Made by a program: the position numbers and the translations under genes
Assembly (NCBI RefSeq): GCF_000336955.1
Contig: NZ_AOLI01000019.1
Location: forward strand, 452,786 to 516,785
Direction: 5' to 3'
DNA from: Haloferax larsenii JCM 13917
Lineage (GTDB): Archaea > Halobacteriota > Halobacteria > Halobacteriales > Haloferacaceae
DNA length: 64,000 nucleotides
Part shown: positions 20,270-63,835 of the stretch, piece after piece
Numbering within the stretch: the first letter of the stretch is position 1
How the letters are laid out: the number at the start of each line of letters is the position of its first letter
The notes under the pieces: generated by a model
What the model was told of the DNA's origin: nothing
The model's database searches: none
Seen by the model: the letters and a program-made list of their open reading frames with translations, nothing else

Positions 20270-21724
20270 ATGCGCCTCCGTCGTTTCGCGGCCAGGTTGG
20301 CCGTACGCACCCGGACGCTCTGGGGACGGATTCGGCGCAGAGAGCGGCGCGAGATGGTCGCGTTCCGACGCTGGATAGAAAACACGAGTAATCTGCTGCA
20401 TCTCACCGTCCTGCTTCTCATTCCGGTTCTCATCGGGGCGGTGACGTTCGTCTCCAACGCCATCGACGCACTCTCGTTCCTCCTGTTTCCGCCGCTCGCG
20501 TCAGGGACGTACACGCTGTTTTCGGACCCGGAAGGACGCTACGCCTCGCCGTATCGATTCATCCTCGCACTCACGGTGGGTGCCCTCTGCGGCCTCGTCG
20601 CCTACGGCTTCACGGCGTGGGTGCACGGCCCGACCGACGTGGCAATCGTCCATCCCTCGTCGGCAGCGCTGGCTATCTTTCTGGCTGGCGGGGCGACGTG
20701 GGCACTCGACGTGGAAGCCCCGTCCGCGTTTTCGACGGCGCTCTTGACGCTCGTCACTGGCGACGTAGAACCCGTCGAATACGTCGTGAGCATCTTCGCC
20801 GCGAGTCTCGTCATCGCCGGGGTGTTCACGCTCTGGCGCGAGGAGTTCTACGAGCGCCGCGCCGAATATCTCTACGAGACGGTTCGCGGCGACGACCACG
20901 TTCTCGTCCCGATGCGGGGCGACGACGAGATGGCGACGCGAACCGCGTTCTTCGCCGCCCGCCTCGCTGCCGCGCACGCCGCCGGAAAAGTCGTCCTCCT
21001 CGACGTCTTGCCGCCTGACGAAGTGGTCGATAGCGAGGCTGAAAACGCACCCTCCGACTCGACACTGAACCTCCCCGTCTCGGAGACGACCGGAAATCCG
21101 GCAGCCGACGCGGCGGTCGAACGTCTCGAATCCACCGCCCATCAGCTTCGAACCCACGTTGGCATCCCGGTCGAAGTCGTCGTCGCCAGCGGGGACTCTC
21201 TCCCGGCGACCACGGAGGCGGCCGCGAACACCAACTCCGACCTCATCGTGACGCCGTACGAGGAAGACCGCGGCTTCCTCTCGGACTACGTTCGCGGGCT
21301 GTTCGGCGGCGAGTACGACACCGTCTCGTTTCGGTCAGTCGGGACCGAGTACTGCTGGCGTCGCGTCCTCGTGCTCGTGGCTCGGCCCGGAGATTCCGCA
21401 CACGCGATGATAGACTTCGCCAGCCGACTCGCTGGCGAAACCGGCAGCGTGAGCGTGACGACCTGCATCTCGACGGAGGTCGAACGCCGACCGGCAGAGA
21501 CGAAGCTCGCGAACCTCGTCGAGACGGTCGATGGAAACGTCGAGACACGAGTGTCGAAATCCGATGTGACGGCGTTTATCGACGCCAACGCGGCGAGCTA
21601 CGACCTCGTCGTCCTCGGGTCGAGTGGCGACCGGTCGGCAGCGTCGCGATTCATCTCGCCGCCGACGTTCGAACGAATCAGAGAAATCGACTGCGACGTG
21701 GCTGTCTTCGACCGCGGGCTGTGA
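20270..21724 (+). CDS. HPP-family membrane protein fused to two UspA domains
   Basis: A 484-residue fusion. The N-terminal half has four to five helices (about residues 43-200) with the block SFLLFPPLASGTYTLF and later HPSSAALAIFL, which I read as the HPP membrane family; the C-terminal half has two universal-stress-protein domains, about 205-335 (start HVLVPMRG, then SDLIVTPYEE) and 360-484 (start RRVLVLVARPG, then YDLVVLGSSGDRS). The last block resembles the nucleotide-binding G-x2-G-x9-GS pattern in part. HPP proteins have been tied to nitrite transport in plants and cyanobacteria; the role here is unknown. It follows the phosphorylase gene by nine bases, so they may be co-transcribed. Confidence 0.75.
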   Translation: MRLRRFAARLAVRTRTLWGRIRRRERREMVAFRRWIENTSNLLHLTVLLLIPVLIGAVTFVSNAIDALSFLLFPPLASGTYTLFSDPEGRYASPYRFILALTVGALCGLVAYGFTAWVHGPTDVAIVHPSSAALAIFLAGGATWALDVEAPSAFSTALLTLVTGDVEPVEYVVSIFAASLVIAGVFTLWREEFYERRAEYLYETVRGDDHVLVPMRGDDEMATRTAFFAARLAAAHAAGKVVLLDVLPPDEVVDSEAENAPSDSTLNLPVSETTGNPAADAAVERLESTAHQLRTHVGIPVEVVVASGDSLPATTEAAANTNSDLIVTPYEEDRGFLSDYVRGLFGGEYDTVSFRSVGTEYCWRRVLVLVARPGDSAHAMIDFASRLAGETGSVSVTTCISTEVERRPAETKLANLVETVDGNVETRVSKSDVTAFIDANAASYDLVVLGSSGDRSAASRFISPPTFERIREIDCDVAVFDRGL

Positions 21725-21817: not shown

Positions 21818-23059
21818 CTAGTCGCTGCTGTTGCTCTCGGCCTCACCATCGCTACCGTCCACACCGTCATCGCTCTCCGCTGGCGGAGCGTCCGGCTCTT
21901 CGTCGAGAAGCCGGTCTTCGATAGACTCCAGTCCGCCGCCACCGATGGCGGACTCGGCGAGGAAGTGGCCGCCGAGCGCGGCGGGGCTGATGACCGTATT
22001 CGCCCCGGCACGCCGCAGTTTTCGTTCGTTCTCGCGCTGGCTCGCCGAGGCGACGATGTGCACGTCGGGGTTGAGTTGCCGCGCGGTGAGGATGGCGAGT
22101 GCGTCTTCGGCGTCGTTGCTGGTGGCGACGACGACAGACCGCGCCGTGTCGACGCGGCCGCGTTCGAGTGATTCTTCGTCGCTCGGGTCGGCGGTGAGCA
22201 CGTCGTAGCCGCGTTCCGTGAGGCGCTGGGCGCGCTCCGCGTTGGGCGTGATGATGAGCACGTCTGCCCGCCCGTCGAGTTCTTCGAGTATCGGTTCGGT
22301 CAGTTCCCCGTGGCCGAGGACGAGGACGTGATTCTCCAGAATGTCGAGTTGTGATTCGGTCATGCGTCCGAGTGCTTTGGTGAGTCGTGCTTCGATTGCG
22401 GGCGTGAGCAGGACACCGAGCGCCACCGCGAAACTCGCGACGGTCACGAGCAGCGCCGACATCCCGAACAGTTTGGCGACGGGCGTCCGCGGCGTGATGT
22501 CGCCGTACCCGACGGTGCTTCCGGTGACGAGCGCGAAGTAGAACGCGTCGAACAGCGTCTCGACGCCGTTGAAATCTTCTCTGAGCGCGTACGCGCCGGC
22601 GGTCGCGTAGGTCTGTGCGCCGGCGATGGCGAGGAGTGCCGAGAGTTGCGTCACCGTCAGGTCGAGGTCGCGGTCGAACGCCCGACGATTGAACAAGAGG
22701 AGTCCGAGGCCGACGACCGAGAGGCTGACGAGGAGCGTGAGCGCGACGAGTGGCTCGATTCGGTCGGGCGACTGGACGAGTCCCTGCGCGGCGGACACCG
22801 GGAGCAAAATTATCGTCGTGTACCACGCGGCGCGAAGGCGGCGACGGAGACCGAAGGCGCTCGCGAGGAGCAGAAAGCCGGTCAAGGTACCGGTGAACCC
22901 GGCAGCGGTCCGAATCGTGTCCGGAATGTACGGACCGAGCAGACCACCGGTCGCTGGCAGGCTGATGTTGACCAACCCGGTCACGGCCGAGAGGACGGCG
23001 ACGACGAACACCACGGCTATCGTCGTCCGAGCACCGAACCAGTCGCGTACCGACACCAT
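21818..23059 (-). CDS. Potassium channel protein with TrkA-N (RCK) domain
   Basis: A 413-residue membrane protein. About six hydrophobic helices occupy residues 12-31, 50-70, 79-92, 103-122, 138-158 and 198-218, and the pore loop holds the potassium filter TVGYGD (182-187). The cytoplasmic part starts with HVLVLGHGELTE (244-255), a TrkA-N nucleotide fold whose usual GxGxxG is changed to GHGELT. A Rossmann acidic position and later AxSN phrases (VVATSNDAEDAL) follow. The tail is a short acidic, Ser-rich stretch. Start MVSVRDWFG is chosen because upstream codons are not conserved-like. It is divergent from the two RCK_C proteins at 23169, suggesting shared potassium control. Confidence 0.85.
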   Translation of the reverse strand: MVSVRDWFGARTTIAVVFVVAVLSAVTGLVNISLPATGGLLGPYIPDTIRTAAGFTGTLTGFLLLASAFGLRRRLRAAWYTTIILLPVSAAQGLVQSPDRIEPLVALTLLVSLSVVGLGLLLFNRRAFDRDLDLTVTQLSALLAIAGAQTYATAGAYALREDFNGVETLFDAFYFALVTGSTVGYGDITPRTPVAKLFGMSALLVTVASFAVALGVLLTPAIEARLTKALGRMTESQLDILENHVLVLGHGELTEPILEELDGRADVLIITPNAERAQRLTERGYDVLTADPSDEESLERGRVDTARSVVVATSNDAEDALAILTARQLNPDVHIVASASQRENERKLRRAGANTVISPAALGGHFLAESAIGGGGLESIEDRLLDEEPDAPPAESDDGVDGSDGEAESNSSD

Positions 23060-23168
23060 GTCTCCCGAAACTGTGGCCCAATCGTAGATAAGGAATTGGG
23101 TATTTCCCGGTCGATGGCGGCGGTGTCCCCCCGGCACGCATTTATTTCGCCGGCGACTTGACTGGGCT

Positions 23169-24380
23169 ATGGCTTCACTCCCCGTCGAAGTCGTCTACGG
23201 ACTCTACTTCGGCATCTTGACGGGTCTCGTCCCCGCCGCCGTCGCTTGGCTCTTGGGCTTCGGATTTCGGTATCTCACCGGCGTGACGGTTCCCGGACTC
23301 GCCGTCGTCGTCCTCGGCGTCGCCATCGCCGGAGCGAGCGGGGGCCTCATGGCCCTCGCCGACCCGACGATTACGCAGTCTGACAATCAGGTTCGGCTCA
23401 CGGTCGCGCTCCTGGTCGTGTTGATGGCGTCGCTGTACGCCCACAACCGCGGCGACGCCTTCGCCAACGAGATTCCACGGAAGGTGTCGCTTCGGAAGTT
23501 GACCGAGCGAACGCTCTCGACCGACGTGGTCGAACTCGTCGGCGGACGCGGACAGGTCAGTATCTCCGTCTCTGGGGACGTCGCTGACGTAGAAGGCTAC
23601 CCGCCGGTGCCACACGACATTCGGGCGGCCATCCGCGACGGGGAGTGGACGTTTCCGGCCGACATCCCGCTCATCGAACTCGAATCTCGGTTCGCCGACC
23701 GCCTCCAGACCGAATTCGACCTCGCGGCGGTCGAGGTGACGCTCGACGAGCGCGCTCGGGCGACTGTCGCCGCTGCCGCACCCTTTGGCGGGCTCTCGAA
23801 GCGCCTCCCACCCGGAAAACGCGCCGTTTCCATCGACGCGCTGGTCCCGACTGGCCTCGCGGTGGGCGACGAAGTCTCGGTCGTCGCTGGCAACGAGACG
23901 GTCCCCGCGACGGTCGTCGGCATCGACAACCCGGTCGAGGCACCCATCGTCGAGAGCGACGAGGACGACGAGTCGGACGCGACGAAACCAGCGCCGCGCG
24001 CTCCCACGGCTGCGGGTGGTGACGGAAGCGTGACGCTCGCCGTCTCTCGGCAAGCCGTCGATACGCTCGTCGGAACGACCCCCGACCGACTCGTCGTGGT
24101 CTCGCGCGGTGTCCGGCGAGAGTTCGAACTCGTGTCGTTGCTTCGGCGCGCAGGCAAGCGATTCTCTCGGCTCTCGGTCGGCGCGGATGCGCCTCTCGAT
24201 GGGGTGACACTCAGTGATGCTGCCGTCCGCGACACCTACAACGTCGCCGTCCTCGCCGTTCGCCACGGTGGGGCGTGGACGATGGCTCCGCGCGGCGACC
24301 AACTGGTGAGCGCGGGGGATACGGTGTTCGCTGTCGGCGCTCGCTCTGACCTCACCGCGTTCGAGGAGGCGGTCGCATGA
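23169..24380 (+). CDS. Membrane protein with C-terminal RCK_C (TrkA-C) domain, first of a pair
   Basis: A 403-residue protein with three N-terminal helices (about residues 5-31, 37-60 and 73-90), a middle soluble region with VEGYPPVPHDIRAAIRDG, and a C-terminal domain (about 315-403) ending with AVRHGGAWTMAPRGDQLVSAGDTVFAVG, the typical RCK_C pattern. There is no pore loop and no TrkA-N domain, so it is not a channel by itself. It overlaps the next gene, a diverged copy, by four bases (ATGA) and faces a potassium channel gene. RCK_C domains bind small ligands, including cyclic di-AMP in bacteria; a sensor or auxiliary subunit role is an inference. Confidence 0.75.
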   Translation: MASLPVEVVYGLYFGILTGLVPAAVAWLLGFGFRYLTGVTVPGLAVVVLGVAIAGASGGLMALADPTITQSDNQVRLTVALLVVLMASLYAHNRGDAFANEIPRKVSLRKLTERTLSTDVVELVGGRGQVSISVSGDVADVEGYPPVPHDIRAAIRDGEWTFPADIPLIELESRFADRLQTEFDLAAVEVTLDERARATVAAAAPFGGLSKRLPPGKRAVSIDALVPTGLAVGDEVSVVAGNETVPATVVGIDNPVEAPIVESDEDDESDATKPAPRAPTAAGGDGSVTLAVSRQAVDTLVGTTPDRLVVVSRGVRREFELVSLLRRAGKRFSRLSVGADAPLDGVTLSDAAVRDTYNVAVLAVRHGGAWTMAPRGDQLVSAGDTVFAVGARSDLTAFEEAVA

Positions 24381-25780
24381 GCGAACTGTTCCTGTTCGTC
24401 GGGCAGGTCTCGATTCCGTCCGCTGGCGACCCGCTCGTGCGGTCGGCCCTCCGGTTCGTCGGCCTCGTCGTGGGTGCGTTCGTCGCCTCCAGCGTCGCCG
24501 CCATCCTCTATCGGTGGTACACCCGCGAGGTCATCCCGCGCTCGCTCGCGGTGCTCTTCGGAGCGGCGCTCGTCGCGCTCTATCTCAACACTATCGGCCT
24601 GTTCGGAGAGTTCGCCGCCGGAACCAACCCGGCCGTCTTCGAACCGGAGACGGTGCTGTACAACGGCGGCGCGCTGGCCGGTGGTGCGCTCGTCTCCCCG
24701 GTCGGCCGCATCGTCGGCGACAGAATCGCCACGGACGTGTTCGCCGTGGCCGGGGCGAAGGAACTCGACGCCGACGTGAGCCGGTTGGTTCGAACGGTCG
24801 GCCGCGTGACGACCGTCACGCTCCCCGAAGATATCGACGACATCGAGGCGTACGACCCCGTCCCCGAGACGGTCAAAGCGCAACTGCGCGAGAAGACGCT
24901 CTTGTTCCCGCGTCGGCTCTCGGTCCCCGAACTCCGGGACCGACTCGTCAGCCGAATCAAAGACGACCACGGCGTTGGCCACGTGGACGTGGAAATCGCA
25001 GACGACGGGACAGTCTCGTACCTCGCGCTCGGCAGTCGAGCCGCTGGACTCGGGCCGACACTCGGTCCCGGAACCGTCGCGATTGCAATCCGTGGCGACC
25101 CCGGTCCAGGTGCGGCCGCTGGCGACCCAGTTCAAGTGTGGGCAGTCCCCGATTCGGACGACGACGAAGCGGTGACTGAGGCGGAGAGTGCCACCGACGG
25201 CGCTGGTGAGTCACCTGCTGTGTCCGCCTCGGCCGACTCGGAGACTGCCGATGCCGAACCTGCAGGACCGAATCGCGTCGCGTTCGGCGAACTCCGCGGT
25301 GTTACAGACGGTGTTTCGACGGTCGCGCTCGACGAGGTCGACGCCGAACGGCTCTCTGGGGCCGACTCGTACCACCTCGTCACGCTCCCAGCGAGTCCCC
25401 ACGTCGACCGTGAGTTCGCGTCGCTGCTTCGGACCGCAGACGAGACGATGGCCGTCGTCACGGTCGGCGAGGGCTCGGAACTCGATGGCGGGACGGTCGC
25501 CGATGTCGAGACGACCGTCGTCGCGATTCGCACCCCGAACAGACCGGTCGAGGCTATCCCTGCCCGCGGCCGCGAGGTCGCGCCCGGCGAGATGCTGTAC
25601 GTCGTGGGCAGACCGGAACTCCTGCGACAGGTCGAACGACAGGCAACCGAGGGGACGGAGACAGACGGTGGAGGCGACGAGGGTACGGAGACTGATGGGG
25701 GAGATGACGGAGATACCAGTGACACGTCGGACGAGTCGGCAGCAAGGGACGACACAGACCCGTCGGCGCAACCCTCATGA
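24377..25780 (+). CDS. Membrane protein with C-terminal RCK_C domain, second of a pair
   Basis: A 467-residue paralogue of the preceding protein. Hydrophobic segments at about residues 14-45, 53-76 and a third near 92-112 are followed by the phrase IEAYDPVPETVKAQLREK, which matches IRAAIRDG in the partner, a Pro/Gly-rich section, and an RCK_C-type domain ending PARGREVAPGEMLYVVGRPELL. The last 50 residues are an acidic, low-complexity tail (Glu, Asp, Gly, Thr). The coupling with the first copy suggests a heteromer in a fixed ratio. Its last bases come 23 bases before the SAMP1 start, so SAMP1 may share the transcript. Confidence 0.75.
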   Translation: MSELFLFVGQVSIPSAGDPLVRSALRFVGLVVGAFVASSVAAILYRWYTREVIPRSLAVLFGAALVALYLNTIGLFGEFAAGTNPAVFEPETVLYNGGALAGGALVSPVGRIVGDRIATDVFAVAGAKELDADVSRLVRTVGRVTTVTLPEDIDDIEAYDPVPETVKAQLREKTLLFPRRLSVPELRDRLVSRIKDDHGVGHVDVEIADDGTVSYLALGSRAAGLGPTLGPGTVAIAIRGDPGPGAAAGDPVQVWAVPDSDDDEAVTEAESATDGAGESPAVSASADSETADAEPAGPNRVAFGELRGVTDGVSTVALDEVDAERLSGADSYHLVTLPASPHVDREFASLLRTADETMAVVTVGEGSELDGGTVADVETTVVAIRTPNRPVEAIPARGREVAPGEMLYVVGRPELLRQVERQATEGTETDGGGDEGTETDGGDDGDTSDTSDESAARDDTDPSAQPS

Positions 25781-25803
25781 GCCCCGAGCGTGGAGACGGG
25801 GGT

Positions 25804-26067
25804 ATGGAGTGGAAGTTATTCGCCGACCTCGCGGAGGTCGCCGGGTCCCGAACGGTCGAAGTCGAGGTCGAACGCGACGCGACCGTCGGCGACGCCCTCG
25901 ACGCGCTCGTCGGGAGCCACCCGCCGCTCGAATCCCGCGTGTTCGCCGACGACGGCGGGCTCTACGAGCACATCAACGTCCTTCGAAACGGCGAGCCCGC
26001 GGCGCTCGACGCGGCAGTCGAAGTCGGTGACGAACTCGCCCTCTTCCCGCCGGTCAGCGGTGGCTAG
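25804..26067 (+). CDS. samp1: Small archaeal modifier protein 1 (ubiquitin-like, MoaD-type)
   Basis: An 87-residue beta-grasp protein ending in the diglycine SGG that is adenylated by the E1-like enzyme UbaA and then joined to target lysines. In Haloferax it also serves as the MoaD-type sulfur carrier for molybdopterin. The start MEWKLFADLAEVAGSRTV and the end ALFPPVSGG match my memory of Haloferax volcanii SAMP1 with few changes. An ATG at 25777 overlapping the previous stop would add nine residues absent from that protein, so 25804 is used. The link to its upstream neighbours is positional only. Confidence 0.93.
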   Translation: MEWKLFADLAEVAGSRTVEVEVERDATVGDALDALVGSHPPLESRVFADDGGLYEHINVLRNGEPAALDAAVEVGDELALFPPVSGG

Positions 26068-61810: not shown

Positions 61811-62149
61811 CTCGTTTTACCCCTGCCGAACTAGAGCGGGTGCGTACCACAAGTCCCCGTCCGAGTGGTCCCACTTCGGGAGCGATGACAGAACGGCGAA
61901 CCCAGGTACGCGACATCAAACGCAGCGTGTACGCTGCTCTACTGACCGGCAAACGCCGGTGTACTTCGGAACGTCCGCGCCCGAAAGACGGACCGCCTGG
62001 CACGAGGGTTTCCCGGTTGACGCGGCACGCCGCCTCGGGATGATACCGGCCGTTAGTGTTCTGGGCGACATCTCACACACCGAAGAGTGAAATCTCGATG
62101 TGAGCACACACTGTTTTGTCTGTTTCCGTACTACCATACGTGTCCCAAA
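61811..62149. other. Stretch with no convincing gene; two overlapping open frames
   Basis: About 340 bases. One frame begins MTERRTQVRDIKRSVYAALL at 61885, and a second frame, one base off, runs up to a TGA at 62090 (ending AVSVLGDISHTEE). The two could be halves of one frame-shifted small gene; the Arg-rich composition makes this doubtful. The promoter of the potassium channel gene must lie in the last part. Confidence 0.35.
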
Positions 62150-63835
62150 ATGACCTCACTCCCCGAGTCGATTCGGCGGTTCGGCCCGAGCCGTCGAATC
62201 CGACACGTCATCTATTACATCATCGGGCTCGTGTCACTCGTGGTCTTCTACGCGGTGGCGTACAACTACGCGCTGGCGCGGCTCGAAGGCGTCGACCAGT
62301 CGATTTTCGCCTCGTTCGAGTTCGTCATCCAGACGATGACCACCACGGGATACGGTCAGGACTCGGATATCTGGAGCCACCCGCTGATGTTCCTGTTCGT
62401 CGCCTCGATTCAGATATCCGGTATCGCAATCGGATTTTTCACCCTCCGTCTCATCATCATTCCGCTGTTTACGAGCGCTCAGGTCAACCTCGACGACCGA
62501 CTCAGCCCGAAGTCCGACCACGTCATCATCTGTGAGTACCGCCGAGACTCCGCGATTCTGCTGGACGAACTCAAGCAACTTGGCATCGATTACGTGCTTA
62601 TTTCGTCTTCACGGGAAGACGCCGAGTCGCTCTCGAACCGCGGCTACGCCGCTATTCACGGCTCTCCGCAGTCGGCAGCCACGTTCGAACGGGCTAGCAT
62701 CCGCACCGCGCGAGCGGTGATTACCGACGCCGGCAACGCGAACGTCAATACGATACTCACCGTGCGGACGCTCCGTTCAGACATCGACGTCATCGCGCTG
62801 ACCGACGACAGCGACATGGAAGGGGTACTGCGCACCGTCGGCGCGGACACCGTGTTGTCTCCGCACGCGGTCTTGGGACACCGCCTCGCAGAGAAGGCTG
62901 TCGCCTCGTTCAGTTCTGAGTTGCGAGACACCATCGAAATCGGCGGGACGACGAAGTTGATGGAACTCCCCGTGTCCGAGTCGAGCGAACTGGTCGGTCG
63001 CAAAATCCGGGACACGAAGGTCAGGGAGCGAACCGGGGCCACCATCGTCGGTGCCTGGTTCGACGGCGAGTTGCAGTTGCCACCCAGCCCGGACGCCGTC
63101 GTCAGTCCAAATACCGTCCTTCTGGTGTCTGGTGAGGAGGCTGCGCTCGAAGAGCTAAACGAGTTCACTCGGCCACCCCGGTCGTTCACCGAACACGAGC
63201 GCTTCGTTCTCGTCGGGTTGGGCGAAGTCGGACAGGCCGCCAAGTCGGTCATTCAGGAGGCTGGTGGTGAAGTCGTGGGAATCGACCTCGAAGAGCGAGA
63301 CGGGGTCGACGTCGTCGGCGATGGCGGGTCCCGAGAGGCCTTGCTCGAAGCAGGTGTCGAGACCGCGGGAGCCATCGTCGTCGGCGTCCCTGACGACTCG
63401 GTTGCGCTCTTGACGACCGCGATGGCGCAGTCTCTCTCCCTCGAGATAGAGATACTCGTCCGTGTGGGGGACGCAGAGACGACACAGAAGGCGTTTACCG
63501 CCGGTGCAGATTACGTCCTGTCGGTCCCGAGGGTGAGCGCGAGGATGGTCGCAAAAGAGCTTCGGGGCGAAGACATCCTCGCCCCGGCGAGCCAGATTCG
63601 CCTCGTCCGAGTACCAGCCGCTGAGTTCGCCGGGAAGACACTCGCAAACTCCCGTATTTACGAGCAGACTGGCTGTCGCGTCATCGCTATTCAAGACGCC
63701 GACGGACAGACTGTAGATATCGACCCACAGCGGCGATTCACCGGCGACGAACGGCTTACGATCGTCGGACGCGACGAAGCTGTACAGAAGTTCCTCAAGC
63801 GGTTCGACGTCTCTCCGACTGACCTCGCTAGCTGA
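62150..63835 (+). CDS. Potassium channel protein with two RCK modules
   Basis: A 561-residue channel or channel-like protein. Two helices (about residues 20-42 and 80-107) flank a pore loop with TTTGYGQ (64-70), where most channels have TxGYGD. The first cytoplasmic Rossmann-like region starts HVIICEYRRD (124-133) and lacks the GxGxxG loop; a TrkA-C domain follows. The second Rossmann region VLVGLGEVGQ (about 356) is normal, with its own TrkA-C domain at the end. So one RCK module is degenerate and the other intact, as in two-RCK channels. MTSLPESI is the likely start. Confidence 0.85.
   Translation: MTSLPESIRRFGPSRRIRHVIYYIIGLVSLVVFYAVAYNYALARLEGVDQSIFASFEFVIQTMTTTGYGQDSDIWSHPLMFLFVASIQISGIAIGFFTLRLIIIPLFTSAQVNLDDRLSPKSDHVIICEYRRDSAILLDELKQLGIDYVLISSSREDAESLSNRGYAAIHGSPQSAATFERASIRTARAVITDAGNANVNTILTVRTLRSDIDVIALTDDSDMEGVLRTVGADTVLSPHAVLGHRLAEKAVASFSSELRDTIEIGGTTKLMELPVSESSELVGRKIRDTKVRERTGATIVGAWFDGELQLPPSPDAVVSPNTVLLVSGEEAALEELNEFTRPPRSFTEHERFVLVGLGEVGQAAKSVIQEAGGEVVGIDLEERDGVDVVGDGGSREALLEAGVETAGAIVVGVPDDSVALLTTAMAQSLSLEIEILVRVGDAETTQKAFTAGADYVLSVPRVSARMVAKELRGEDILAPASQIRLVRVPAAEFAGKTLANSRIYEQTGCRVIAIQDADGQTVDIDPQRRFTGDERLTIVGRDEAVQKFLKRFDVSPTDLAS

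Follow-up and report, generated by a model that had tools for sequence, protein, structure and literature searches.

Gene arrangement at the locus

The 64-kb Haloferax window (the whole stretch of DNA that was analysed) contains a potassium channel gene facing away from two overlapping genes for membrane proteins, here called A and B, which are followed by the gene for SAMP1 (Table 1). The initial annotation had described a TVGYGD/TrkA-N channel divergent from such a pair with SAMP1 behind it, and the whole arrangement is present. It also recurs across Halobacteria, and is therefore not due to chance. Among named relatives of A, the nearest is from Haloferax elongans, at 96% in the best-matching segment. 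SAMP1 scores 120.2 bits against NF041918 (cut-off 60), with a match that begins at residue 10 and a C-terminal GG. Given a SAMP1 start at 25804, B and SAMP1 are probably separated by a gap of about 23 bases rather than overlapping. A second channel-like protein of 582 aa, with the motif TTTGYGQ, is encoded at 62087-63835 (+) of the window; it is a complete double-RCK protein, in which RCK_N and RCK_C stretches each occur twice.

Table 1. Features of the channel, A-B and SAMP1 region (window positions)
Feature	Position	Strand	Basis or remark
Upstream neighbour: HPP-like membrane part and two Usp domains	20270-21724	+	Between udp and the channel
K+ channel, MthK/Kch-like, RCK_N without RCK_C	21818-23137	-	Pfam Ion_trans_2, TrkA_N
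RCK_N (TrkA_N) of the channel	21983-22327	-	
Selectivity filter TVGYGD of the channel	22499-22516	-	
Probable start codon (ATG) of the channel	23057-23059	-	ORF open to 23137
Channel/A intergenic region, about 109 bases, probable promoter region	23060-23168		Inferred from gene starts
Gene A, 403 aa; predicted three-helix membrane part, then middle domain and RCK_C	23169-24380	+	
Membrane part of A, residues ~4-101, three helices	23178-23471	+	Predicted model and hydrophobic stretches
Middle soluble domain of A, homologous to that of B	23520-24149	+	Profile-profile comparison
RCK_C domain of A	24150-24377	+	TrkA_C profile, fold match
ATGA overlap, A stop/B start	24377-24380	+	Read directly
Gene B, 467 aa, paralogue of A	24377-25780	+	
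Divergent RCK_C domain of B	25439-25660	+	First helix shorter by about six residues
SAMP1, ubiquitin-like small modifier, C-terminal VSGG	25804-26067	+	NF041918; ORF open from 25777, true start probably 25804

A protein of H. volcanii, HVO_2617, was noted in 2018 as a three-pass membrane protein of 403 aa with a C-terminal TrkA domain, and was placed in the conserved haloarchaeal composite gene family 1329, possibly concerned with potassium uptake (PMC5992828). It is very likely of the same family as A, judging by its description, and it lies two gene numbers from SAMP1, which is HVO_2619 (PMC4500146). The passage on it in the 2018 paper describes no B partner, channel link, pilus-type paralogues or split with RCK_N. 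The B partner, the channel link, a KhtT/KhtU context and pilus-type paralogues are likewise absent from the literature searched, in which no paper on HVO_2616 or HVO_2618 was found.

Domains and predicted folds of the channel, A and B

The channel matches the Pfam families Ion_trans_2 (6.8e-14) and TrkA_N (1.8e-29), and the NCBIfam Kch family PRK10537 at 2.9e-55, below the cut-off for that family. It has a K+ filter together with an RCK_N domain, as in channels of the MthK type, and TVGYGD is invariant in 95/95 aligned channel sequences. Its likeness to MthK extends over MthK residues 14-259 (E 2e-29), and the alignment ends at residue 259. In contrast to MthK, which has RCK_C in the same chain, the haloarchaeal channel has none: a Pfam search gave no TrkA_C match in the channel chain, and the residues that follow RCK_N in its orthologues number 28-36 (medians). 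A further difference is an extra N-terminal hydrophobic region in the haloarchaeal protein. Channels of the E. coli Kch type are likewise without RCK_C, and thus the missing half need not come in trans.

A and B are paralogous to each other (BLASTP 7e-21) and had been annotated as ending in RCK_C-like domains and as having no pore or TrkA-N part. The latter point stands, as neither TrkA_N nor any pore family was matched in A or B by Pfam at E values up to 1. The former holds fully for A, which scores 46.5 bits (3.5e-12) against TrkA_C (PF02080), over the curated cut-off of 27, and whose relatives match in 16/16 cases. B taken alone remains under that cut-off (16.2 bits), although 14/15 of its relatives match (best 5.9e-8) and its modelled tail has the expected fold. 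By predicted fold, B is RCK_C-like; by sequence, it is divergent.

AlphaFold models of A and B, built from 16 and 15 relatives respectively, are of modest confidence (mean pLDDT 72 for A and 74 for B; pTM about 0.3; pLDDT mostly 50-72 in the membrane part of A), and yet their RCK_C regions are confidently predicted. Each model has three hydrophobic helices at its N-terminus, and the charges around these point to a cytoplasmic soluble part. In VIA-align comparisons, residues 328-403 of the A model superimpose on 2bko (Z 14.3, 76 residues, 1.3 Å), with similar scores for the RCK_C of A against KhtT (Z 14.1) and the RCK_C of BusR (Z 13.5), and residues 340-428 of the B model superimpose on MthK (Z 11.6, 87 residues, 2.6 Å). 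The best sequence-profile match of A is the RCK_C of S. aureus KtrA with c-di-AMP (4xtt, 3.6e-9), and the best PDB sequence match of B is TM1088A/TM1088B.

A and B share a homologous middle domain (profile-profile probability 99.1), which has no firm known relative. RcpC/CpaB (PF16976) was considered as a candidate and rejected: it is matched over the cut-off in 0/59 genomes, the A genes match RcpC positions 2-105 weakly (best 2.2e-4), and the B sequence profile prefers the SMUBP-2 barrel (1.1e-4). The B model aligns to 9gzr with a Z of 7.9, which falls in the range described as common, and 9gzr does not appear among the matches listed for A. The domain is therefore described here only as a soluble middle domain.

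KhtT, the c-di-AMP-binding RCK_C subunit of the KhtTU K+/H+ antiporter, has RCK_C without RCK_N, as do A and B, but it is small and soluble, whereas A and B, each predicted to have three membrane helices, also carry a middle domain and form a paralogous pair. Similarly, RCK_C is common to A and to KtrA, KtrC and TrkA; however, KtrA and TrkA have RCK_N in the same protein, and A and B, predicted to be membrane-anchored, do not. The two-subunit TrkA ring TM1088A/TM1088B of Thermotoga is a two-subunit RCK assembly that the tails of A and B match structurally, but its subunits are soluble, and in the haloarchaeal locus the RCK_N half belongs to the channel. Additionally, the tail of A aligns to MthK residues 256-334 (E about 2e-6), although here the halves are split over two proteins, one of which would be anchored in the membrane on its own.

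Gene pairing and genomic contexts

A-like proteins were found in 93/117 and B homologues in 96/116 sampled genomes of the order; both counts include paralogues, and that for A also a small number of weak matches, probably to RCK_C alone. Among the matches listed when the whole phylum was searched with a profile of A, full-length A-type proteins occur in Halobacteria only, and relatives outside Halobacteria are of RCK_C length only. B follows A directly in 80/80 named loci, with an ATGA overlap in 68 and abutting genes in 12, and the coupling of the two genes proposed initially is thus invariable.

The channel is upstream and divergent in 75/80 loci and SAMP1 is downstream in 71/80; the other neighbours are udp (44), the HPP-Usp gene (38) and the gene beyond SAMP1 (5). 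The HPP-like membrane protein with two Usp domains is therefore conserved in about half of the loci. Among the 95 genomes with B, the best channel match is adjacent and divergent in 85 and tandem in two, and the suggested link between pair and channel is accordingly conserved, with adjacency in 87/95. In these two genomes (G012 and G039) the channel, A and B are co-directional, with a gap of about 25-45 bases between channel and A, and the adjacency of channel and pair has therefore survived a change of orientation.

SAMP1 was considered as a functional partner and rejected, since it adjoins both the channel alone and A-B alone, which argues against a specific tie. The pair lies with SAMP1 but away from the channel in four sampled genomes, and six loci that lack A-B or have it elsewhere (L160, L168, L171, L172, L186 and L187) keep SAMP1 beside the channel. 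The position of SAMP1 looks like a matter of shared neighbourhood, not a sign of joint function. At L160, L168, L171 and L172, A-B is absent and the channel faces SAMP1 directly, so that the pair was either cleanly lost or never gained there.

Two genomes from a single genus (G023 and G054) have an intact A-B pair whose neighbours, a TrkA_C-only protein and a Na_H_Exchanger protein, resemble KhtT/KhtU, with a double TrkA protein nearby in one genome and an MscS channel in the other. This context is a second link of the pair to cation/K+ transport, independent of the channel. The KhtT/KhtU-like pair was located beside A-B at 2326-7838 of L196 and 12484-16096 of L197; one of these loci also has MscS and an amino acid permease-Usp fusion, and the other a double TrkA protein.

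A second, paralogous A-B pair is present in about 15 sampled genomes (L141-L154, L156), mostly in pilus/MinD-type clusters or parts of them. The cluster genes include those for a T2SSE ATPase, DUF7310, DUF7311, DUF7283, HerA-like and MinD/ParA-like ATPases and, by reading, a membrane protein resembling a pilus assembly core, and these clusters look like an uncharacterised pilus-associated membrane module. The RCK_C of the pilus-type A appears, again by reading, to have decayed. Two AAA ATPases of the CDC48 type, 743 and about 840 aa long, flank the pilus-type pair at three of the loci (L144, L150 and L153). In a tree rooted at the midpoint, in which the channel-type A clade has low support (0.052), A-type and B-type branches are separate (0.946) and pilus-type A and pilus-type B are each monophyletic (0.952 and 0.963). 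This pattern indicates that the pair was duplicated as a unit, which is the strongest evidence for a joint function of A and B.

Candidate ligand and proposed role in potassium flux

Taken together, the observations make A-B a probable heteromer of membrane-anchored RCK_C proteins that regulates K+ or cation flux. In the preferred reading, to which a probability of about 0.4 is given, A and B would assemble as a heteromeric membrane complex with their RCK_C domains on the cytoplasmic face; the RCK_C of A would bind a small ligand, with that of B as a non-canonical partner; and the complex would modulate potassium flux, mostly through the divergent channel that has RCK_N and no RCK_C. Haloarchaea hold molar potassium and produce c-di-AMP. 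The initial annotation had proposed that the pair may be a sensor or auxiliary complex for potassium flux or osmotic response, and this is partly supported by the RCK_C content, the pairing and the links to both channel and antiporter, but not in the form of an obligate channel subunit, as 20/116 genomes keep the channel and have no A-B.

The leading candidate for the ligand is c-di-AMP. When the pocket of A was compared with the c-di-AMP pocket of BusR (PMC8517857) and with KtrA, by a mapping that assumes the ungapped A-BusR alignment from the fold match, the hydrophobic residues 348, 353, 359 and 361 and R354 were kept in 79/81 cases, the proline position was Gly376 in 80/81, and the polar rim for ribose and phosphate was not conserved. 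The pocket is only partly conserved, and c-di-AMP is a plausible ligand of the RCK_C of A. It is an unlikely ligand of B, in which about six residues of the helix lining the pocket are missing. The same genome encodes a diadenylate cyclase domain, and H. volcanii makes c-di-AMP (PMC6741144). No RCK/TrkA receptor is named in the H. volcanii second-messenger literature found.

Since the channel corresponds to MthK 14-259 and the tail of A to MthK 256-334, the pair carries the half that the channel lacks, and these complementary halves are suggestive of a split MthK. A more specific version of the preferred reading is that A-B supplies RCK_C in trans and gates the RCK_N channel in response to c-di-AMP, as a split gating ring; this seems decidedly unlikely in full. 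An obligate split RCK was considered and rejected, because branch lengths over all lineages show no relaxation of RCK_N where A-B is absent (RCK_N/pore rate ratio 0.541 without A-B vs 0.569 with it). Within one family, the ratio is 1.16 without A-B vs 0.96 with it on few, non-independent branches, and the median pairwise ratio is 2.12 vs 1.52, again from few non-independent data. An obligate channel subunit is thus disfavoured, and gating of the neighbouring channel with c-di-AMP as the signal is a good hypothesis, though there is evidence against its strict version.

The persistence of the pair away from the channel, including beside the KhtT/KhtU-like antiporter, and of the channel without the pair would also fit a general membrane platform for osmotic or second-messenger sensing, directed at several cation transporters or at other targets and not at the neighbouring channel in particular. 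This is possible but rather unlikely, given that 87/95 genomes keep the pair beside the channel. That same neighbourhood might instead be incidental if the core role of the family were to provide type IV pilus-like machines and MinD/ParA-type ATPases with a membrane platform, of which the RCK_C pair would be a derived, ligand-responsive form. Such an origin would account for the roughly 14 paralogous pairs in T2SSE/MinD-type clusters, which have no intact RCK_C in A, and for the weak similarity of the middle domain to RcpC of the Tad pilus. It is nevertheless improbable: RcpC is never matched over the curated cut-off and the middle domain of B is closer to SMUBP-2 by sequence, there are no pilus genes beside the channel-type pair in the loci examined, and the channel-type A keeps an intact RCK_C.

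Conserved gene order might also reflect no functional linkage at all, with udp, HPP-Usp, the channel, A-B and SAMP1 forming an ancestral block that breaks up slowly. The retention of udp and HPP-Usp in about half of the loci, and the channel beside SAMP1 where A-B is absent or elsewhere, are as such a block would predict. However, the adjacency of channel and pair outlasts the other neighbours and survives the shift to an operon-like order in G012 and G039, which makes this explanation unlikely.

Overall, the haloarchaea-specific RCK_C pair beside a channel that has no RCK_C, with modulation of potassium flux as its preferred role, is a concrete candidate in a genetically tractable organism, where HVO_2617 and its neighbours would represent it. 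If A-B does form a split gating ring with the channel that responds to c-di-AMP, it would be the first haloarchaeal c-di-AMP effector in the literature searched, and it would mean that an RCK gating domain can be divided, with one half in a channel and the other in a separate membrane complex.
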